DNA of 22,302 nucleotides from a virus. Shown piece by piece: positions 6,119 through 17,751 of this stretch; positions within the stretch are counted from its first letter, which is position 1; every line of letters begins with the position of its first letter. The notes under the pieces were generated by a model, which saw nothing but the letters and a program-made list of their open reading frames with translations, ran no database searches and was not told the DNA's origin. The stretch spans positions 1-22,302 of IMG/VR virus record IMGVR_UViG_3300025131_000481. One strand, 5' to 3'. Both the position numbers and the translations under genes were made by a program.

Positions 6119-6781
6119 CTAGTCGCGATATATAACAGCCCCTGCTCCTTCAGCGCCAGCGGATCGATCTGGATAACCCTGCGCCCCCGGGCGGCCTAGT
6201 TGGCTGGTTTGAACTGATTTTCTATCCTCCCATACATTCTTCTCTACCGAACTCAAACTAACACTTACAACATTTCCCCCTACGCTCATTCTCCCGTAAC
6301 CCACGGGTACGACCTGCCCTTGCTGCGCTGTATTTTCAGCGCTAGAAAACACAAAGGAGGTAGTATTTGTTGCGTCCGGATCATCGCTTTTCATTGTTTT
6401 GTTTATCAAATAACTAATACCAAAAGATATTGCAGCGCTAATAACAGCCGTAAGAACAAACTGTACAATTACAGCGGTGACCCCCTGCAGTCCAATAGCC
6501 GAAACTATAGCGCCTGCCATCATGGCGGCTGCACCAGCCAAAATAGGAACAATTTCTATCTTCTTGTTTTTTACATCTCTATATAAAAAATCGTCCGCCT
6601 TAACTAAGTCTCCGTCAAGAAAAATAGCCAACTTATCTTTTTTATTTTTATTTAAATAATGACGAAAAATACCTGTATTACACTCCAAAGCATTAAAAAG
6701 CTCCATAAAAGTGGATACCTTTAGTTTCCATGTGGAACCAATCTTTTTTCCTAATTTTCCGCCTATAAATATATCTGTCAT
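6119..6781 (-). CDS. I: Lambda gpI-like tail tip assembly protein, second copy
   Basis: This 220-residue protein belongs to the gpI family, which is needed to build the lambda tail tip. Residues 1-78 are a small basic ubiquitin/beta-grasp-like domain (GGKLGKKIGSTWKLKVST) ending IEIVPILAGAA. Residues about 80-126 are strongly hydrophobic with two possible membrane or fusion-like helices. Residues 141-184 carry the family signature SFVFSSAENTAQQGQVVPVG, YGRMSVGG and SSVEKNVW. The tail (190-220) is Gly/Ala/Arg-rich and ends VIYRD. It is clearly paralogous to the neighbouring 206-residue protein: the signature block aligns almost without gaps, down to VEK.VW. The ATG lies 8 bases after the previous stop in an AT-rich leader with no Shine-Dalgarno site, so coupling is likely. 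Whether both copies enter the particle or one acts only in assembly cannot be read here. Confidence 0.9.
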   Translation of the reverse strand: MTDIFIGGKLGKKIGSTWKLKVSTFMELFNALECNTGIFRHYLNKNKKDKLAIFLDGDLVKADDFLYRDVKNKKIEIVPILAGAAAMMAGAIVSAIGLQGVTAVIVQFVLTAVISAAISFGISYLINKTMKSDDPDATNTTSFVFSSAENTAQQGQVVPVGYGRMSVGGNVVSVSLSSVEKNVWEDRKSVQTSQLGRPGAQGYPDRSAGAEGAGAVIYRD

Positions 6782-6789
6782 TTAAATTT

Positions 6790-7410
6790 TTATCTAAAAA
6801 CCATAGTGTTAAATGCCTTAGATTTATCCCATACCGATTTTTCAACACTGCTATTAGATACGGAGATTGTCATACTACCTACTCTCATCCGCCCATAAGC
6901 CACAGGCACAACACCCCCTTGGTTAGTTGTATTCTCGGCCCCTCCAAAAAGAAAACTACTAGTTCTCTCCGATTGGGGGTCCTTGGGATCTTCTGCCATA
7001 TGCGATATCAAGCTACTGATCCCAAGAACAACTAAAGCAACTAAAGCCACAACAGCTACAGCCACCACCATATATCCTATAGCCAGCGCCGTCGCAAAGC
7101 CAATCGGGGTGGCCGCCACGATCGCCGCGCCTATCCAAACCGCAGCAGAAACCGCCCCCCCCGCCAAAATAGGAATCAAAACTAGACTTTTTTTAATTTT
7201 TTTTAAAAAACAAGCATCAGGTGCCACAGGCACACCGTCTACTATCACCGCATACCTTTTTGAAACCCCTAAAGCTTTCGCGAACGCGCTTCCAACATTT
7301 GCCCGTATGGCCCTAATTGCCTCCCCTACGGTCCCTACATGGAGTTCCCACTTTTTACCTAGCGATTTGCCTACACGACCTTCTAGAGAAACCTCAACCA
7401 TACTATACAT
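6790..7410 (-). CDS. I: Lambda gpI-like tail tip assembly protein, first copy
   Basis: This is a 206-residue gpI-family protein. Residues 1-77 form the N-terminal domain (VEVSLEGRVGKSLGKKWELH). Residues about 76-136 are an Ala/Val/Ile-rich hydrophobic stretch (LVLIPILAGGAVSAAVWIGA, then VVAVAVVALVALVVLGIS), long enough for two helices. The conserved C-terminal block FLFGGAENTTNQGGVVPVAY, GRMRVGS occupies 153-179 and ends SSVEKSVW. It shares all blocks with the following 220-residue protein, so the two arose by tandem duplication, but it lacks the Gly-rich tail of that copy. Two ATG codons, at 7410 and 7401, could start it; neither has a clear Shine-Dalgarno site, and the upstream stop is 9 bases away. 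Confidence 0.91.
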   Translation of the reverse strand: MYSMVEVSLEGRVGKSLGKKWELHVGTVGEAIRAIRANVGSAFAKALGVSKRYAVIVDGVPVAPDACFLKKIKKSLVLIPILAGGAVSAAVWIGAAIVAATPIGFATALAIGYMVVAVAVVALVALVVLGISSLISHMAEDPKDPQSERTSSFLFGGAENTTNQGGVVPVAYGRMRVGSMTISVSNSSVEKSVWDKSKAFNTMVFR

Positions 7411-7419
7411 TATACACTA

Positions 7420-7800
7420 TTAAATTAAAAAATAAATGGTTTCTTGTGTCTCAGGGTCATATAAAGCAAACTTTGCTTCGCTAGGAGAAAACACCAAAAA
7501 CGGTATTAAGGAATTATCTGAAAGCTCAATATCGCTCAGGCTGGGGCCACAGGTCGACTGAGGGTGAGAATGAAAGCAAAAATCTATTTTTTCTCTGCGC
7601 GAAACCTCTATATATTTTAAAGGATCAATGTAAAAAGTGTCTTGCTGGTTTAGAGAAGAGTTTTTTATGAAAAATAAACTATTATTGCAAATTAAACCAC
7701 ATATTTCAATAGAATGTAACGACGCAAGGCGCTTAATATAACTTAAAAAGTCACATCTAATTTGTGTAGCGGTATGCCTCAATGGATGGGAAGCCTCCAA
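7420..7800 (-). CDS. K: JAMM-domain tail assembly protein, gpK N-terminal half only
   Basis: This is a compact JAMM (Mov34/JAB) zinc isopeptidase-type domain. Counting from TTG at 7800 (126 residues), the metal site reads H77-S-H79-P, then seven residues to S87 and two more to D90; E32 in the segment SIEICGLI fits the upstream catalytic glutamate. Lambda gpK joins a JAMM domain to an NlpC/P60 domain. Here the frame stops at the end of the JAMM domain and no NlpC/P60 motif follows. The frame contains no ATG or GTG codon. TTG at 7800 has no Shine-Dalgarno site; TTG at 7782 follows GGAGG by 11 bases and gives 120 residues, which I prefer. Either start overlaps the end of the gpL-like gene (44 or 26 bases), as in the tightly packed lambda order L-K. 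Its likely role is processing or assembly of the tail tip; the substrate is unknown. Confidence 0.86.
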   Translation of the reverse strand: MEASHPLRHTATQIRCDFLSYIKRLASLHSIEICGLICNNSLFFIKNSSLNQQDTFYIDPLKYIEVSRREKIDFCFHSHPQSTCGPSLSDIELSDNSLIPFLVFSPSEAKFALYDPETQETIYFLI

Positions 7801-9049
7801 ACGGAAGCTCTGAATAACTTTTGAACCTTAACGTACACGCTGGAACCGTTTTGGAACATTGATCAGCCCCCCAATATTCTTTTTTATATCGAGGATCCTG
7901 CGGGACTATATGTTGTTTTATGCACACAAAAAATGCATCAGGCTCATCCGCTGAAGAATCTGCGCTTTTGACATGTTTAACCTTATCTATAGTGCTAAAG
8001 GTTCCAGATTTAATCCTTACGACATCTCCTTTTACATATCCTACGGTACCAGTTGAAGAGTTGGCCAACGTGCTTTCCCCATGATTTAAACGCAATCTGC
8101 CAGTTAAACTTGTGGCGTTTTTTTCAGCCAATGTGGTCACCTCGAAGGTACCAGTAGAAAAAATTATAGTCCTATTAGGGGTAATTTCATTAGAAATAGC
8201 CGCTACCGTTAAAGAGGAAGCGCCGTCAGAGGCCAGAGCCCCTGTAGTAATTTCCACTTGTTCTCTTATGTAATCATAGCTCCACCTCATAGAAGTAATA
8301 CCATAACCACTGGAAGCTTGATCAAACCTTTTGTTATTAGCGTCGGCAACAGGTATACCTAGGTTTGAATCAAGCAGACTAGTATTTGATTTTCTTCTAA
8401 AAAAGTCACGCGAAACAATAGCGGCGCCCGTAGCACTGTTAACCAAGCCCGAAACAGGACCATCCATATCTGAGCGACACCCGTACCTACACCCTACCCC
8501 TCGATATTTCCACGGACAATAATTAGATACCATCAACCGCGCAGGCAACGTGTGACTCTCCATCTCCAAAGGAGAAATTAACTCAAACTCTACAAAAAAC
8601 TTACTCTCCGAAACCTTTCTATTAAATATAAAAATATCCTCGTCAAAACGCGCACTAGAATCAGACACTGCAAAAGGGTTGGTTTCTTCAGGAAAATTCA
8701 CCTCGTCAATATATTTGAGAAAAATTCTGATTCGTTTAAATTTTTGCCCCACCATATCATCCCTCCTTTTAATAAGGTCAGAAATCACACCGTTCGGATT
8801 GGCTACCAATAACCTAGGGCGCGCCAACGTCCCGTCTCCTTTTGACTCAAAACCATCCGCTTCAATAGGGAGGGAAAAATAAGTATGGGCAAGATTGGTA
8901 TCGGGATCAGTTAATACGATGTCTTTGTTAACGATTTTGCCCGCGTGAAACCGTTTAACACCGCCTTCTTCTATAGACACCTCATAGAGCTCTATAATAG
9001 TGTCTGGGAGAAGATCCGCTAAAGATGCGTTATGTGCTTGTGTTGACAT
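7757..9049 (-). CDS. L: Lambda gpL-like iron-sulphur tail tip protein with large insertion
   Basis: Residues 1-175 match the N-terminal part of gpL/DUF2163-type tail tip proteins (TIIELYEVSI, DEDIFIFNRKVSESKFFVEF). The cluster-binding part follows: C178 in NYCPWKYRGVGC with C187 eight residues on, then C398 in WGADQCSKTVPAC with C405 six residues on, ending LPFGGFPSIEAY. The spacings C-x8-C and C-x6-C are those of the lambda gpL cysteines known to hold a [4Fe-4S] cluster. In gpL the two pairs are about two dozen residues apart; here they are 210 apart. The insert (about 192-395) holds a small repetitive beta module (SSLTVAAISNEITPNRTIIF) and a segment just before C398 (GDVVRIKS, then FFVCIKQHIVP) that resembles small carbohydrate-binding folds. 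Extra cysteines are C191 and C376. The ATG is 2 bases after the previous stop, with no good Shine-Dalgarno site. Confidence 0.92.
   Translation of the reverse strand: MSTQAHNASLADLLPDTIIELYEVSIEEGGVKRFHAGKIVNKDIVLTDPDTNLAHTYFSLPIEADGFESKGDGTLARPRLLVANPNGVISDLIKRRDDMVGQKFKRIRIFLKYIDEVNFPEETNPFAVSDSSARFDEDIFIFNRKVSESKFFVEFELISPLEMESHTLPARLMVSNYCPWKYRGVGCRYGCRSDMDGPVSGLVNSATGAAIVSRDFFRRKSNTSLLDSNLGIPVADANNKRFDQASSGYGITSMRWSYDYIREQVEITTGALASDGASSLTVAAISNEITPNRTIIFSTGTFEVTTLAEKNATSLTGRLRLNHGESTLANSSTGTVGYVKGDVVRIKSGTFSTIDKVKHVKSADSSADEPDAFFVCIKQHIVPQDPRYKKEYWGADQCSKTVPACTLRFKSYSELPFGGFPSIEAYRYTN
7780..7798 (-). promoter_or_regulatory. Shine-Dalgarno GGAGG and TTG start inside the upstream gene
   Basis: On the minus strand GGAGG occupies 7798-7794 and is followed after 11 bases by TTG at 7782-7780, in frame with the JAMM protein. 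The whole site lies within the last codons of the gpL-like gene (those for ELPFGGFPSIE). Because the JAMM frame has no ATG or GTG anywhere, this is the best supported initiation signal for it. Confidence 0.5.
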
Positions 9050-9051
9050 TT

Positions 9052-12000
9052 TTATTCGAAAAGGATTTGTCCTGCAAACCCATTGTTATCGGTGAAAGCA
9101 TTAACAGTGTCTACGGATAGAGGGTCCCCTGCATCCGCTCCTTTCACTGTAAGATATTTATTATATAAAAAACCTAAGACGTTTCGATTTTCACTGCTCG
9201 CTAAAAGCCTATTGTAAATCACCAGATGAGCTAACCCCCCTTTATACCCTACTCCAAACGGAGCTCTGTATTCTCCACCTAGGGCGCTCGCCCCTATTAA
9301 AACATTATCTGAACTCAAAAAATCAAAAGCTTCTTTATTTGTTTTAAACTGTTGCCCTCCTACAGGCACTCCATTACATCGCGCTAAAAGAGATATTAAA
9401 CCATTTTTTCGTTGGGCAGACAAATTATAAACCCACGCCGAACGGGGCGTCCGTATCACCTCAGCGCTTTCTTCTGACCCTTCGGCTGCCATATTTAAAT
9501 CCTGAAACGTTAAATAGTTATTAGTGTTTTCGCCACTCACCCCAGCATTCTCCATAACACTAGGCTCGCAACGATGATAATAAGCAGAATCAAAACCAGT
9601 GCCATCTCCCTTGGGCTTCACAAATGGTGCGGACCACCTCATCCACCCTACTTGAAATACATCATCATAAACCGCCTTACACACAAAAGTTAAAGTTTTG
9701 CCGGTAGCCTCGCTTGCCGTTGGTGCGACCGAAAGTACCACGTTGGGAGCAGAAATACTAGATACTTTAGTGTTTACGGGAATATCAGCACCTATAACCA
9801 TTTCGCCAACCTTAATGTCTGTCACGTTGGCGGGCGTAATGGTAGTGTTGCCAGAGGTGTAAGTGCATGTTTTATTATTTGTTTTCCCCATGCTGGTTTC
9901 TATTTGACTATTACTCAGCCAACAAGAGTCAAAACTAACAGGCTCACCACCCTCGTGGTACGGCTCTCCAAAGGTCTTTTCTGGGAACACCGGTCTCCCA
10001 CCAATGTAATTTCCTTGAGCATCCCACTTGTCCGGATATATCACATAAAAAATATCAAACCCATTCATGAAGGGCGAAAGTCGGTTGGAACCATATTCGC
10101 TATCGTTCACTTGTCTTTTTCTGAGAGTACCAAAAAGAGCGGTATCCGACGAAGCGGCATCAGCGGCTAACTGGAATTCCCCTCCTCCTGCAAAATAAAC
10201 AACATCATTTGCCAATAGCTTAGAAGGAAGGCTTGCCACTGCAATTCCCACACCAGCCGCTGAGTAAAGACCCGGTTGGTAAGTTTTTCCACTACTATTG
10301 ATCTGTATGGCTCCCGTGTTACTCTGGTCTACCGTAGCATTTAGCAGTTTGAAATACTGCGCGCCCGGACGAGTCGGAGTTGTGGCGTGATAACCATAAT
10401 ACGCTGGATCAAAATAAATGAAAGGAGCGTCATTAAAATATCTTTTATAAAGCGTTGTTCCTTTAAAATTTGTATAGTCAGCCGTACGGTAAGTGGGACG
10501 ATTATTGTTAGCGTTGGTGGTTTGTTCCATATAAATACCGTCATCACCTGAATTATTAGTTGAAGCCCATCTAACTATAGATTGACCGTTTGTAGCCGCC
10601 GTATTGGTGCTTTCATTCGTATAAGCGCTATAAACATTTTGAGAGCTGTCAAAATTAGCCACCAAACCGGAAATATCTGAAGGGGTTTTCTTTGAGGGGG
10701 TTATTTCAATCAATACAGACCGAAAATTGTTTTTAGTATAATTTGTATTCCCCGAAATCACCCTAAGTGCGTTGCCCGCACTCCCTCCAAGCTGCCCTAC
10801 CGTATTATCTTGAACCGTAAAAGGATCAATAGCTCCTATATCATCCATATTTTGGCCCTTGATCCCCCCTTCTCCATAGCCTCCCCCCGCACCCCCTTCA
10901 GAATGACGAGTTTGCTGGCTCGGAGACAGGTAGCCCGGACCGGAGCCATAAAACCCTCCGCGCAATTGAATATTCAATGGCTTCAAGTCTGCGTCGGGAG
11001 AAAGTTGCCGCCCCCCCTCAGACACAATATAGCCCTGCCCACCTCCGCCGGGACCCCCATAATGCGTACCCAAAGTGGATACCAGCATTTCGTCTTGGGT
11101 TGCTCTACCGCCTGCCGCGACAAGTTTTAATTTTCCGTCTTTTTTAACAAGCTTTGTATTACTATCTAGAATTTTCGGGTTAGCCGCCCACATTTTAGCG
11201 AACAGCTCAATTGAGGTGCCAGATTGTCCACCTACAAAATCCACAATCTTATAACTTGTGGAGTTCTTAAGAGCAAAGATTTTTTCAACCAAAAAGCGAT
11301 CACCGCCCCCTCCTCCTCCACCACCACCCAACACCTTTGCTGTGTAATCTTTCCTAATCTTAAATTCACCAATCGCCGTATCAGAAATCTTAATGGCGTG
11401 CCCCCCCGGTGAGCCTACAGTAGAATTTTCCGTCTTAGAGAACTCAAAAGTTAATGTGTTGGTTTGGATTGAAGGGGCATTTTTTACTAGAGTATATCCT
11501 CCGTCCCCACCCGCTCCCCCTTTACCGGCTACCACAGAATTATATTGCATCACTAAAACTGTAGGAGTCTCCTTGACAGGTTTTTGAAGATTAGAATGAC
11601 CCCCCGCTGTAGCATCCGCTGGATTCACAACCCCTGTTAATAATTGATAGCCCGTATCTATAGATGGTTTTGTTGAATCTGTAGATCCCACTACAAAATT
11701 AGGACGCAAAATATATTGGATACCTGTAAAATTATCCCCATAAACTCCAGTCTCAGCCACATTAAGCCATGCCTCCGGACTTGTCTCATAAGGTATTCCG
11801 GGAACATTATCCAACCCATCTGTTTGCGTAACCACACCCCTATTCACCAATTCTTGAATAAAAAGGCCACTTAAGTTAAGATTGGTAGAACCATGGGGTA
11901 AAAAAATCCTCATAGCAGGCTTACTCCCTGCCGGTATCCTAATCTTGGGCAGATGACTCGCGCTGGTAATAGGCTGAGCAAAAGAGTTTAAACCCAAACC

Positions 12001-14265
12001 GGTGTAAACCTTGTCACTCACCACCTGATTAAGATCATCTACCCCGCTAGCATAAACATACATAGACCCTGTTGTGAAGGCCACCTCTTCACCGGCTGCA
12101 TTTTGATATTCTGATCTTATTCGATAATAATAATTTGAATCCGGTTGAAGTTGTGTGTGTAAGACCGAACGGGGTTGATGATAACCCGTAATAATAGGAT
12201 CCGTAAAAGGGCTTCCGATAGCATCTTGAGCCAAACTAGGAGGAAATGCTATACCTGTATATAAAAGAGTATTGAAATTTCCAGCGTTCCCGGCTGTGCT
12301 CCCATCATAAGAAGATACCTCCTTAAACCCAATTCTTCCCGGGTCATCACTATCGGTATAAAAATTGGTTAACCCCGTAAATCCGTCAGCAGGCCCTTGG
12401 CTTGCCTCTAAATTGTATCGCGTTAAATAGTAGCCGCTGGTGGGGTGTTCCCACTGTAAATAATGTAAAGGACGCCCAGACACATCATAATATCCCGTTT
12501 TAACTAAAAACTTGCTTGGAAACATAGGGGTCTCCGAAAGGCGCCCTGCGTAAGGGCTAGAACCCCATCCACTAATATACCCGGTGATACCTAATGCTAT
12601 TGTTCCACTAGGGTCAACTTCGTTATCCACTTCCGCCACCGTACTTAAAGTTAAATAACCATTATATCCTGTAATTTGTGGGCTAGCAGGATCAATTGAG
12701 GAGGCATTCGAATTGTCCCCAAACGCATTAAAATAAAAAGGAACAAAATGTGTTACCCCGGGAGGGGTAATGATAGGGTTATCCACTGATCCTGAGGGAA
12801 ATTCAAAAACCGAATACTCATTCTGAGAGGTGTCTAAAGTAGTCTTAGTGGTAATATTGCCACTGTTAGTTAAATAAAAACCAGTTCTTAGGGTAAATCC
12901 CGTGGGAACATAAACGGGGATGCCTGTATTCTCTACAAACTCCGTGTTCTGTGCCCTAGCCCTAACGCTAGTAGACCCTCCCCAGTCTGCGTGTTGAGGA
13001 ATTGTGGTTACAGGCTTATTAACAATAGTTACTAATGTTCTAAAATCCCTAGTAAGATTTAAATAATCTATTGGAAACTCTAAAAAATCTACCCTAATAT
13101 CATTATTATCTTTGAATTTTAAAGTATGTTGCCAACTCGAGGAAATAAAAACCTTCCTCTTATCATAAGGGGCGGGTGGGGTGAAGTTGAAAGGGGCGCT
13201 TCCTTGATGGTGCTCTAAAAAATGAACCATTGCCTTGGTTTCCCTGTCTGTGCGTCCCCGAAAATCTAAAGAAAATTTTAATAAATTTTTATTTAACCCC
13301 GCTCCGAAGCGAATTTTAAATTGATTTTGCAAATCTTGGCTATAATAAACTGGCGACATCTCTAACGAAATCTGGTCATTAGCACCAAAGTAAAAAGTGT
13401 CCTTTGTCCAAAGTGTCGCGTCCCCAGAAGGGGAATTGTAAATAGTGCCCTTTAGTCCGGTTACCTTACCATCGCTAGAGGTGTAATCCACATTTTTTTC
13501 ACCTGTAAAATAATACCACCCACTTTGCTTAGGTAAAAGGCATGATTCCGAGGCTGTTTCCTTCATGAAAAAAGCGGCATCGTGTTGATAATACTGCTCG
13601 CCATCATCATACTTTTCTCGAGTTCCTTCATAAGGAATATGTAACTGCTGCCAATCAGTCAACGACACCGTTTCGTTGAAAAAAGTTGTACTCACATTGT
13701 TAACCTCAGGACCCGCTGTACTGTGGTTAATATTTTCAATAAAAAATTCTCCACTTAAGTTATAAGGGGCAAAAGGAGCCCAGTTAATCCCACTATATCC
13801 CCCTTTTGGCTTGGTTCCCTTATTAAAAGAATCTTCTAGAAGATGAATGATGGCGCGGCTTTCAGCATCTGTTCTTTTATTGAAAGAAAGGTTAAATTCT
13901 GCACGTAAAGCGTTCTCGCTTCTGTTCAATACGGAATAATACCCATCTCCCATCGAGGTAGAGTAATTAAAAGCTTTATAAGAAACCGTAGCTCCGTAAG
14001 AAGGCTCAAAGAAAAATTTTTGAGTCCAATTAGTAGGGTTATTTTCTTCTGTAGTCGCAGCAGGCGTATTGCTAATTGTGGATGCGGTGCCCTCTTTACC
14101 GGAATAATAGTAATGACCCGACTGAGCTTGAGTGCACGGATACAACGAGTCATCGGCTGGATCTGTATAGCCGCTAAAGTAAACAATATCGTTCAGCTTA
14201 TAATTGTTCCCAACCTCAAATGGAAAAATATCAGTAATATTGGTGACGCCCGAGTTAATTATCAT
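9052..14265 (-). CDS. Tandem gpM-like tail tip protein fused to a giant adhesin-like region
   Basis: This 1737-residue protein sits where lambda has the small gpM. Two copies of one unit open it: a small domain (NYKLNDIVYFSG, ending NPTNWTQ) plus a gpM-like domain at about 86-210 (KRTDAESRAIIHLLED), then the same pair at about 220-405 (GRTDRETKAMVHFLEHH, APFNFTPPAPYD). Residues 410-900 are beta-rich, with a fibronectin III-like stretch at about 598-735 (LQWEHPTSGYYLTRYNLEAS, NYYYRIRSEYQNAAGEE). A glycine-rich region covers 913-1138, with KGGAGGDGG, a run of nine glycines, GGPGGGGQG and GGAGGGYGEGG. Residues 1195-1710 look like a LamG/concanavalin-type lectin fold (GLVANFDSSQN to LAHLVIYNRLLASSE, FLYNKYLTVKG), with a small beta module inserted at about 1466-1531. 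I infer a tail tip ring component carrying a lateral adhesin. The start is well supported by GGGAGGG seven bases upstream. The function of the fused body is not proven. Confidence 0.86.
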   Translation of the reverse strand: MIINSGVTNITDIFPFEVGNNYKLNDIVYFSGYTDPADDSLYPCTQAQSGHYYYSGKEGTASTISNTPAATTEENNPTNWTQKFFFEPSYGATVSYKAFNYSTSMGDGYYSVLNRSENALRAEFNLSFNKRTDAESRAIIHLLEDSFNKGTKPKGGYSGINWAPFAPYNLSGEFFIENINHSTAGPEVNNVSTTFFNETVSLTDWQQLHIPYEGTREKYDDGEQYYQHDAAFFMKETASESCLLPKQSGWYYFTGEKNVDYTSSDGKVTGLKGTIYNSPSGDATLWTKDTFYFGANDQISLEMSPVYYSQDLQNQFKIRFGAGLNKNLLKFSLDFRGRTDRETKAMVHFLEHHQGSAPFNFTPPAPYDKRKVFISSSWQHTLKFKDNNDIRVDFLEFPIDYLNLTRDFRTLVTIVNKPVTTIPQHADWGGSTSVRARAQNTEFVENTGIPVYVPTGFTLRTGFYLTNSGNITTKTTLDTSQNEYSVFEFPSGSVDNPIITPPGVTHFVPFYFNAFGDNSNASSIDPASPQITGYNGYLTLSTVAEVDNEVDPSGTIALGITGYISGWGSSPYAGRLSETPMFPSKFLVKTGYYDVSGRPLHYLQWEHPTSGYYLTRYNLEASQGPADGFTGLTNFYTDSDDPGRIGFKEVSSYDGSTAGNAGNFNTLLYTGIAFPPSLAQDAIGSPFTDPIITGYHQPRSVLHTQLQPDSNYYYRIRSEYQNAAGEEVAFTTGSMYVYASGVDDLNQVVSDKVYTGLGLNSFAQPITSASHLPKIRIPAGSKPAMRIFLPHGSTNLNLSGLFIQELVNRGVVTQTDGLDNVPGIPYETSPEAWLNVAETGVYGDNFTGIQYILRPNFVVGSTDSTKPSIDTGYQLLTGVVNPADATAGGHSNLQKPVKETPTVLVMQYNSVVAGKGGAGGDGGYTLVKNAPSIQTNTLTFEFSKTENSTVGSPGGHAIKISDTAIGEFKIRKDYTAKVLGGGGGGGGGDRFLVEKIFALKNSTSYKIVDFVGGQSGTSIELFAKMWAANPKILDSNTKLVKKDGKLKLVAAGGRATQDEMLVSTLGTHYGGPGGGGQGYIVSEGGRQLSPDADLKPLNIQLRGGFYGSGPGYLSPSQQTRHSEGGAGGGYGEGGIKGQNMDDIGAIDPFTVQDNTVGQLGGSAGNALRVISGNTNYTKNNFRSVLIEITPSKKTPSDISGLVANFDSSQNVYSAYTNESTNTAATNGQSIVRWASTNNSGDDGIYMEQTTNANNNRPTYRTADYTNFKGTTLYKRYFNDAPFIYFDPAYYGYHATTPTRPGAQYFKLLNATVDQSNTGAIQINSSGKTYQPGLYSAAGVGIAVASLPSKLLANDVVYFAGGGEFQLAADAASSDTALFGTLRKRQVNDSEYGSNRLSPFMNGFDIFYVIYPDKWDAQGNYIGGRPVFPEKTFGEPYHEGGEPVSFDSCWLSNSQIETSMGKTNNKTCTYTSGNTTITPANVTDIKVGEMVIGADIPVNTKVSSISAPNVVLSVAPTASEATGKTLTFVCKAVYDDVFQVGWMRWSAPFVKPKGDGTGFDSAYYHRCEPSVMENAGVSGENTNNYLTFQDLNMAAEGSEESAEVIRTPRSAWVYNLSAQRKNGLISLLARCNGVPVGGQQFKTNKEAFDFLSSDNVLIGASALGGEYRAPFGVGYKGGLAHLVIYNRLLASSENRNVLGFLYNKYLTVKGADAGDPLSVDTVNAFTDNNGFAGQILFE

Positions 14266-14279
14266 ATAACTGCCCTCCC
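14262..14279 (-). promoter_or_regulatory. Strong Shine-Dalgarno site and ATGA stop-start overlap
   Basis: On the minus strand GGGAGGG (14279-14273) is followed by seven bases and then ATG at 14265. The last three bases of ATGA are the TGA stop (14264-14262) of the preceding 266-residue gene. This is a typical site for coupled re-initiation and fixes the start of the 1737-residue protein. Confidence 0.75.
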
Positions 14280-15062
14280 GGTTGAATAATCTTGCGCCAT
14301 CGAGATAGACCCCACCATATAGTTCCTATCCGCTACAGATAAATTCTGGGAAAAAACCTGACCAGTACAACTAAAAGTGGCAAGGGCCGAATCCCCGGGG
14401 TTCCCATAAACATCATAAAGATGAGCGGTCATTGTAGCGGCATTACCTGTTTCTTTCAAAACGCGTCCTAAATTTTCCCCCTGTACATTCATATTAATCC
14501 TAACGTTTTCTTTTGTGACTCGAAAGGGGAGCCCACTTCCAATAACGGTCTCTGGATTTCGACTGCAGTTTACTGAATAAGTAAAAGATAATTTTTGATT
14601 GATACCCAGTTCATCGCCTGCTAAATAACTCTTTGCCCCGTGCGCCAAAGCCCGCCGCTTTCTTATATCAATATCGCTTTTTCCTGATTCCAAAAACTCC
14701 AACTCTCCGTAAAGATCGATGCTAGAGCGGATAGCAATAGGCTCGAAAGGGCTCACAGAAAACTCCAATTCCCTGATATAACCACTTTTAAAACTCATTC
14801 CCCCCAAATTACCACTTAATGGTTCTCCGGTCCATTCAACAGCAGTCAAAGGGTTTAAAAAATCATGTAAATTTCCTGTTAAATAATGAGTGAACTGCAA
14901 GGTTCCTTTTACAGGACCATCAGGAGCGTATCGGATAAGCCCCCCTGTGACGCTTTTTATAGGAGTAAGTGGGACCTCTGCCCCTAGCTGAGCGCTTTCA
15001 GCGAAAATGCTGTGCCCCTCTATCTCGAGTAATGCTTTTTCATATTCAATGAATTTTCCCAT
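14262..15062 (-). CDS. Tail-tube-like structural protein, second paralogue
   Basis: A 266-residue beta-rich protein. I cannot name its family exactly. Four segments line up in order with the 334-residue protein two genes upstream: GPVKGTLQFTHYLTG (49-63), MSFKSGYIRELEF ending IDLYGEL (89-121), SFTYSVNCSRNP then FRVTKENVRINMNV (159-193), and the C-terminal TGQVFSQNLSV then MVGSISMAQDY (233-259). The pattern of paired strands with a SGY[IL] turn and an [LT]YG strand end recalls tail tube and major tail proteins, so it may be a terminal tube ring or an adaptor between tube and tip. It starts with ATG 5 bases after the fibre gene stops, with only a weak AAAG upstream, and its stop overlaps the next start by 4 bases. 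No signal peptide or membrane segment is seen. Confidence 0.78.
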   Translation of the reverse strand: MGKFIEYEKALLEIEGHSIFAESAQLGAEVPLTPIKSVTGGLIRYAPDGPVKGTLQFTHYLTGNLHDFLNPLTAVEWTGEPLSGNLGGMSFKSGYIRELEFSVSPFEPIAIRSSIDLYGELEFLESGKSDIDIRKRRALAHGAKSYLAGDELGINQKLSFTYSVNCSRNPETVIGSGLPFRVTKENVRINMNVQGENLGRVLKETGNAATMTAHLYDVYGNPGDSALATFSCTGQVFSQNLSVADRNYMVGSISMAQDYSTGRAVI

Positions 15063-16744: not shown

Positions 16745-16760
16745 TGTTATAAATCCCTCT
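16742..16760 (-). promoter_or_regulatory. Shine-Dalgarno site of the fibre gene
   Basis: On the minus strand AGAGGG (16760-16755) is followed after 10 bases by ATG at 16744-16742. It lies within the last codons of the preceding gene, whose TAA ends 2 bases before the ATG. Confidence 0.55.
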
Positions 16761-17751
16761 GTAAGTAATCTTTAAACTCTAAAGCTACACTTAAACTGCC
16801 ATCAACAGCAGTAGATATGTTCTCTGACACTAGTTGTCCCGTTACACTATTAAAATTGTACATTGTACGAACGCCATTATCTTCTAAAAAACCCACTGCC
16901 CCCGCTGCATTTTTTCCTTCGAGGTATATAGACCCCCCTACTGATGGACTATTTACCGCTTCTAAGCTTTCTACTTCTCGTGTTGCGGACTCAATATTTA
17001 AACTAATGGATTCATAATGACCACTACGTATTGTATCCATAATATTGGCAGTTTCAAAATCGTCCACTCCCACCGTTATATTTGTAGTTAATTCCACAGG
17101 AAAGTTTGTCACCACCTCTACCGGCCCCCAACCAGCCCCACCTGTCAAGGTAGTGCTATCTTTAGGAAGTAATGCATAGACAGGCTGCCTGTTAATATTA
17201 TAGGATTGCGCAACTTGAGTTACCCGGTTTGTGCCTGATTGGGCCAAACCACAGGTGATAGACCCTTGGTTAGCAAAGGTAATAGATCTTGGAAGCAGCG
17301 GCTCGCTCCCTGAGAAATCCATATCCCCTCCTCGGATTCCACTTCCAAATCTTCCATACGTAGTAAAAGAACAGTTTACAGTTGGTGTCCCCCCTACTGC
17401 ACAATTTACCTCATAACTTGTCAAATAACCCGAACTAAAACCAAATACTTTTTCCGTCCCCTCTTCGAGCTGAGGAGCATATATTAAAGACCCAGATACA
17501 GGAAACTCGCCTGTAAGATCCAAAACCGGATCCCCTCGCGTCACAAAATCTCTGGTAAAAGAAACGCTGCCCTCAAGAGGCCCAGCATATACACTTTGCG
17601 TAAATCCAGCCCCCAGAATATCTGCACGCTGTTGCGGTATATTGTAGCTTGCGTTCCAATCGGTGATACCTGAAACTGTTTGCCCAAACTCCCATGCCGA
17701 AGATTCCATGAAAAATCTTTGCTCATAACTGGGGCTCGCGTTTTTTGCCAT
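16747..17751 (-). CDS. Tail-tube-like structural protein, first paralogue
   Basis: A 334-residue, Gly/Ser/Thr-rich beta protein directly after the tape measure gene. Two halves can be seen. Residues about 55-135 contain GPLEGSVSFTRDF, GFSSGYLTSYEVN and NCSFTTYGRF. Residues about 175-330 contain SYNINRQPVYALLPKDS, FPVELTTNITVGVDDFETAN and TGQLVSENIST. Both halves have the paired-strand look of tail tube or major tail folds, but I cannot assign a named family. Four blocks also occur, in the same order, in the 266-residue protein downstream, so the two are paralogues; this one is about 70 residues longer. In lambda the tape measure gene is followed by gpM, so this gene and the next two are extra to that plan. 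Its start is well fixed by AAGGA seven bases before the ATG. Confidence 0.8.
   Translation of the reverse strand: MAKNASPSYEQRFFMESSAWEFGQTVSGITDWNASYNIPQQRADILGAGFTQSVYAGPLEGSVSFTRDFVTRGDPVLDLTGEFPVSGSLIYAPQLEEGTEKVFGFSSGYLTSYEVNCAVGGTPTVNCSFTTYGRFGSGIRGGDMDFSGSEPLLPRSITFANQGSITCGLAQSGTNRVTQVAQSYNINRQPVYALLPKDSTTLTGGAGWGPVEVVTNFPVELTTNITVGVDDFETANIMDTIRSGHYESISLNIESATREVESLEAVNSPSVGGSIYLEGKNAAGAVGFLEDNGVRTMYNFNSVTGQLVSENISTAVDGSLSVALEFKDYLQRDL

Follow-up and report, generated by a model that had tools for sequence, protein, structure and literature searches.

A tandem gpM protein with a predicted adhesin arm at the tail-tip locus of an uncultured virus group

At this tail-tip locus, the place expected for gpM is taken by an open reading frame of 1737 residues, which raises the question of how a ring protein and a large adhesin-like part could share one chain, and in how many copies such a chain would be present. 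The locus lies in a 22,302-base stretch of DNA, hereafter the window, which is the complete IMG/VR virus record IMGVR_UViG_3300025131_000481, a linear fragment whose main genes are all on the minus strand. Along the direction of transcription, the tape measure gene (1516 aa) is followed by genes for three proteins of 334, 558, and 266 aa, by the 1737-aa fusion, and by the gene for gpL (430 aa). A JAB protein comes next, then a pair of gpI homologues and gpJ (1286 aa), and the last gene, for an FN3/collagen-like protein, is cut off by the end of the record. Compared to lambda, three genes separate the tape measure gene from gpM here, whereas the adjacency to gpL and the cluster ending in gpJ are present. 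The place of the fusion ORF directly upstream of gpL, JAB, gpI, and gpJ is conserved among the loci of the family. The features discussed below are collected in Table 1.

Some other features of this cluster were observed. The 266-aa and 334-aa proteins (14262-15062 and 16747-17751) are distantly paralogous (hhalign 99.7%), and the sequence searches found no known fold for either of them. The interval between tape measure and gpM in which they are encoded corresponds to the position of the paired fibre proteins in JBD30, but their identification as JBD30 gp47 and gp48 was rejected, given that there is no sequence similarity. At the gpK position (7420-7800), the JAB-type domain stands alone, and no NlpC/P60 part was found. 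The end of the 746-aa minus-strand ORF at positions 1-481, a gene which exceeds the record, encodes a long collagen-like GTSGSS repeat, and the mirrored plus-strand frame is likewise open (PEVPEEPE...), as a by-product of the repeat.

Table 1. Features of the fusion ORF and its two neighbours in the window, with residues of the fusion protein.
Feature	Residues	Window position	Strand	Evidence
Whole fusion ORF, tandem gpM ring part and predicted adhesin arm	1-1737	9052..14265	-	Unbroken over the junction in ten related contigs
Small beta spacer ahead of gpM domain 1	~14-60	14086..14226	-	Strands in model; no Pfam hit; repeated before domain 2
gpM domain 1	~82-198	13672..14022	-	Paralogy; model; PF05939 17.1 bits alone
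Small beta spacer ahead of gpM domain 2	~217-258	13492..13617	-	Alignment; strands in model
gpM domain 2	~290-400	13066..13398	-	Best PF05939 stretch (290-394); lambda gpM 8iyk_M
Junction, site of the stop and new start in the sister clade	414-431	12973..13026	-	Alignment with split clade
Stalk, PapD/FN3-like domains	432-890 (first domain from ~406)	11596..12972	-	VIA Z up to 12.2 (406-567); FN3 pairs by Foldseek
Gly-rich block	902-1190	10696..11562	-	Alignment
Hypervariable middle of the Gly-rich block, candidate receptor-contact segments	991-1115	10921..11295	-	Identity 0.45 versus 0.76-0.88 in flanks
ConA/LamG-like C-terminal domain with insertions	1195-1737	9055..10683	-	Laminin_G_3 in 2 of 18 homologues; fold matches of model
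gpL homologue (430 aa), gene after the fusion, predicted tip neighbour		7757..9049	-	PF05100 E 2.4e-35; phrog_18
266-aa tip-cluster protein, immediately upstream of the fusion ORF		14262..15062	-	ATGA overlap with the fusion ORF

A single reading frame, fused in some clades and split in others

The fusion ORF is read on the minus strand, which the initial annotation had not given, from an ATG at 14265 that overlaps the upstream gene (ATGA), and gpL starts 2 nt past its stop codon. In 200 shuffles of the window, the longest stop-free run was 247 aa, against 1737 aa for the ORF. In codon usage, all four parts of the ORF agree with the rest of the window genes when read in this frame (r 0.71-0.83), but not in either of the alternative frames (r 0.26 or less). 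Between pairs of relatives, dN/dS is mostly below 0.3 along the ORF and rises to as much as 0.6 within the Gly-rich block; a short stretch at the junction has almost no synonymous changes, so that dN/dS is uninformative there. Purifying selection acts over most of the fusion ORF.

Scans of IMG/VR gave 22, 29, and 11 loci, many of which were shared between scans. The single chain proposed in the initial annotation is found again in related contigs, ten of which have one ORF spanning the junction (L003-L006, L041, and L047-L051); in L002, the junction is also crossed by one ORF, which then frameshifts in the Gly-rich part. The same fusion is nevertheless not universal among the relatives, since a sister clade carries the two parts as separate, neighbouring genes (L007-L010, L012-L014, L016-L018, L030, L032, L033, and L052), with a gpM part of 394-419 aa and an adhesin of 985-1114 aa, which overlap by ATGA in most cases and are 1-6 nt apart in some. 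The start of this separate adhesin aligns near window residue 427-432. L011 shows the split arrangement with an extra stop within the gpM part; this stop (L011:4800-4900) and the frameshift in L002 (L002:5940-6170) are due either to sequencing error or to real loss.

The stop and start found at this site in the sister clade could indicate that the single ORF is an artefact of assembly or sequencing which joined two genes, but we consider this to have almost no chance of being right, given that the fusion recurs in ten further contigs, which come from different samples, have diverged in sequence, and are under purifying selection, and that the junction lies away from indel-prone tracts. The single 1737-aa ORF is real, and the fusion is genuine but clade-specific.

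In a tree built from the gpM part, fused and split forms are sister groups (support 92/93 and 85/86), and a deeper clade (L042-L046, 33% identity) is also fused, with proteins of 1500-1658 aa in L042, L043, L044, and L046. In this deeper clade, the stretch following gpM is stalk-like (hhalign 88-98%), and hhalign found no relation between its C-terminal end and that of the window protein; an F5/8C (discoidin)-like tip, read by eye, is not claimed, as Pfam finds nothing there. One fusion and one fission cost the same on the tree as two fusions. In loci L019-L023, two gpM stretches are found in a protein of 327 aa, with no adhesin to match, and a scan with residues 436-1737 alone, for an adhesin without gpM, gave nothing.

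The existence of both a fused form and an adjacent-gene form supports a physical partnership of ring and arm. One polypeptide might still be made and then cleaved in the junction region, leaving the mature tip with a gpM ring and an adhesin that are no longer joined. Such processing would agree with the split clade, which shows that both parts can function as separate proteins, and with the lower conservation of residues 414-431 relative to their surroundings; against this, the junction alignment shows no conserved cleavage motif, and the tip cluster of the window has no protease gene, the JAB protein being the sole candidate. We find cleavage improbable and retain the intact chain as the preferred reading.

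Differences between the loci were also seen outside the junction. The two neighbouring gpI-type genes (window 6119-6781 and 6790-7410) are both present in the fused clade, and only one in the split clade. A small beta module is common to the C-terminal extension of gpL (L003:12843-14414 and L004:13181-14770) and to the adhesin (window residues 1309-1393), and an insert resembling it occurs near residue 860 in several relatives. A similar insert (TVTGVGTTW...MVGMTF...) is found in the gpM part of L006 (L006:8001-13154) and in the C-terminal domain of the L003-L005 adhesins. Modules thus seem to move between tip genes.

The tandem gpM ring part and its probable copy number

The gpM homology of residues 80-405 put forward in the initial annotation passed the profile test. 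Pfam family PF05939 (Phage_min_tail) matches the fusion protein in two stretches (E 6.7e-13, 49.4 bits, with a curated cut-off of 39), of which residues 290-394 are the best, and the score reaches 72.8 bits in relatives. In the PDB, a profile built from 11 homologues over residues 1-414 matches lambda gpM (8iyk_M) at E 3.6e-8, the next hit being at E 0.59. Instead of the one gpM-like part that had been described, however, the N-terminal region contains two. Residues 61-260 match residues 261-420 by BLAST (E 7e-11), and profile-profile comparison over the family indicates that the two halves are paralogous (hhalign 99.65%, E 3.7e-25, 124 columns), whereas comparisons with the neighbouring 334- and 266-aa families, made as controls, stay below 1%. 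This excludes a single gpM followed by a long spacer, and residues 80-405 are, on these alignments, two tandem gpM domains. Domain 1 has diverged more than domain 2 and, taken alone, scores below the PF05939 cut-off. Nevertheless, the helix, strands, and loop of the gpM fold are retained in both copies in the AlphaFold model, and both copies are conserved across all clades. A CBM5/12-type identity of the beta spacers that precede the two domains, suggested by eye only, received no Pfam hit.

Two AlphaFold models were made, one of residues 1-880 (mean pLDDT 61) and one of residues 861-1737 (mean pLDDT 60). In the first, which is of moderate confidence, residues 82-403 align with residues 175-567 of 8rk3_D (Z 11.2, 221 residues, 3.6 Å). 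The matched span corresponds to domains III-VI of JBD30 gp49, so that the two ring domains of one chain are matched at once. By hhalign, a weak test here given that a single gp49 sequence was used, there is no sequence similarity to JBD30 gp49.

Several known tails bear on the copy number. The distal tail protein gp49 of JBD30 forms a trimer whose subunits each contain two beta-sandwich domains; it converts sixfold into threefold symmetry and forms, with gp50, the attachment sites for three tail fibres (PMC11445458). The lambda tail has a threefold ring of six gpM, in two conformers, placed between its sixfold tube and the hub of gpJ and gpL (PMC10721106), and in the T5 tail tube protein pb6, duplication and fusion of a hexamerising domain resulted in a trimeric, pseudo-hexameric ring (PMC5717097). 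With two gpM domains per chain, three chains would fill the six ring positions and carry three arms. Three copies per tip rather than six is thus, by analogy with these systems, the count that appears best supported. The several lateral arms per tip expected in the initial annotation are sensible as an inference, their number being probably three.

Alternatively, only one ring domain per chain might enter the ring, in which case six chains would carry six arms and the other gpM copy would be a decoration. Single-domain chains of the gpM type do assemble in sixes in lambda and LSH1 (PMC10721106, PMC13243795), and the stronger divergence of domain 1 would suit a decorative role. On the other hand, the helix, strands, and loop kept in both copies, their simultaneous match to two ring domains of one JBD30 chain, their conservation in all clades, and the trimers resulting from duplication in T5 pb6 all argue for two ring domains per chain, and we regard six arms as even less probable than cleavage.

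Our preferred reading is that a two-domain distal ring protein of the gpM/Dit type and an adhesin form one chain, with three chains per ring and three lateral arms, to which we assign a probability of about 0.78. Three two-domain chains would form a pseudo-sixfold ring linking the sixfold tube above to the threefold gpL/gpJ hub below, and the remainder of each chain would leave the ring as a lateral arm, giving three arms in total.

The predicted arm

The order of FN3-like, Gly-rich, and LamG-like regions given in the initial annotation held. In the model, residues 406-567 form a PapD/FN3-like domain (VIA Z 9.6-12.2) followed by more FN3-like strands, and FN3 chains dominate the Foldseek matches of the whole first model.

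Conservation is uneven along the chain. Within the closest fused clade, the gpM part averages 0.88 identity, the stalk 0.85, and the C-terminal domain 0.83, while the outer Gly motifs of the Gly-rich block show 0.78 and 0.76 and the middle of the block 0.45. This dip recurs in three other groups, and it is weaker in one split group whose entire C-terminal half varies. The peak of dN/dS also falls in the Gly-rich block. T2-type gp38 receptor-binding proteins are characterised by hypervariable segments set between Gly-rich motifs (PMC12892980), and this pattern makes the Gly-rich block the best candidate for receptor contact. The likeness to gp38 is one of sequence pattern; with regard to a polyglycine-II sandwich fold, the block found no sequence match in the PDB, and pLDDT is below 50 in its variable part.

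The LamG-like region proposed for residues 1195-1710 is recovered in the second model, where about residues 1192-1731 adopt a ConA-like jelly roll (VIA Z 16 over about 225 residues, at 6-13% identity), and it is less clear in Pfam, where Laminin_G_3 is reached by 2 of 18 homologues (best E 0.0053) and the corresponding end of the window protein has no match. Fold matches of this domain include sialidase lectin domains and the cyanopodophage tailspike 9vyh_p (Z 15.2). Hits to the binding domains of clostridial neurotoxins, at 6-11% identity, are explained by the widespread ConA-like fold and are no sign of a toxin.

In the proposed arrangement, each arm would consist of the PapD/FN3-like stalk, then the Gly-rich domain, whose hypervariable segments would contact the host surface, and then the ConA/LamG-like domain, which may bind glycans. 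We infer the trimer, the ring position, the three arms, and the receptor contact from the comparisons above. If this is true, a determinant of host range is built into the ring at the tube end, with adhesin and ring sharing one chain, and the hypervariable block marks where host range may be set in this uncultured virus group. The natural split and fused homologues would provide a clean test of whether a covalent link between adhesin and ring is needed.

Comparison with known systems

Most deposited phage records examined have their gpM matches within small ORFs, and gpM2 alone matches only lambda-type gpM in such records. At the thresholds used, tblastn against INPHARED gave no match for the fusion protein, the 266-aa protein, the deeper-clade fusion, or the 327-aa protein; no close relative was found among 50,697 phage records, and a prophage scan of genome contigs gave none. 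The initial annotation gave no earlier example of this layout among lambda-type tails, but it is preceded by the Moraxella phage Mcat7 and by the evolved Dits.

In Mcat7 (AKI27307.1 in KR093631; L058:3118-5409), gpM occupies residues 2-107 of a 764-aa ORF, annotated only as a tail protein; further along the chain lie five phage-tail repeats and a trimerisation region of the gp37 type. As in the window, gpM is N-terminal in one long ORF, in Mcat7 directly after the tape measure, but there is a single gpM domain and the remainder is a fibre of the trimeric type. In the open-licence literature, we found no paper discussing this fusion and no functional study of it. Evolved Dits of Gram-positive siphophages also combine a distal ring protein and a host-binding module in one chain (PMC6669499, PMC10688798). 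They share with the fusion protein the addition of domains to a ring protein, host binding being only predicted in our case, and differ in that the module is inserted internally and far smaller, with one ring domain per chain and a hexameric ring. LSH1 gp24, a gpM homologue, bears an N-terminal decoration resembling a sugar-binding domain (PMC13243795).

With lambda gpM, the fusion protein shares the sequence family (PF05939), the fold elements, the adjacency to gpL, and the predicted place between tube and hub; lambda gpM has 109 aa, one domain, six copies, and no adhesin, whereas two domains and an arm are found in one chain here. JBD30 gp49 (8rk3, PMC11445458) also has two tube domains per chain, both covered by the structural match, and its trimer anchors fibres. 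It differs by its length of 567 aa, by its lack of detectable sequence similarity, by its separate fibres gp47 and gp48, and by having no C-terminal adhesin. T5 pb6 has a duplicated, fused ring domain as well, but is a tube protein rather than a distal ring, and its addition is one Ig-like domain (PMC5717097). T2-type gp38 has the same alternation of hypervariable segments and conserved Gly-rich motifs (PMC12892980), but is made as its own protein at the end of the long fibre, and no sequence match between it and the block described here was found.

The fused, duplicated gpM would join the known solutions to the step from six- to threefold symmetry at the tail tip. The general idea is known, and what is new, as far as our searches reach, is the combination of a tandem gpM with a 1300-aa arm in the same chain, of split and fused homologues, and of a hypervariable Gly-rich block. 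The full picture, in which each subunit of a trimeric ring of duplicated gpM covalently bears a hypervariable gp38-like arm, with split and fused sister clades and a terminal module exchanged in the deeper clade, seems to us evenly poised between right and wrong.
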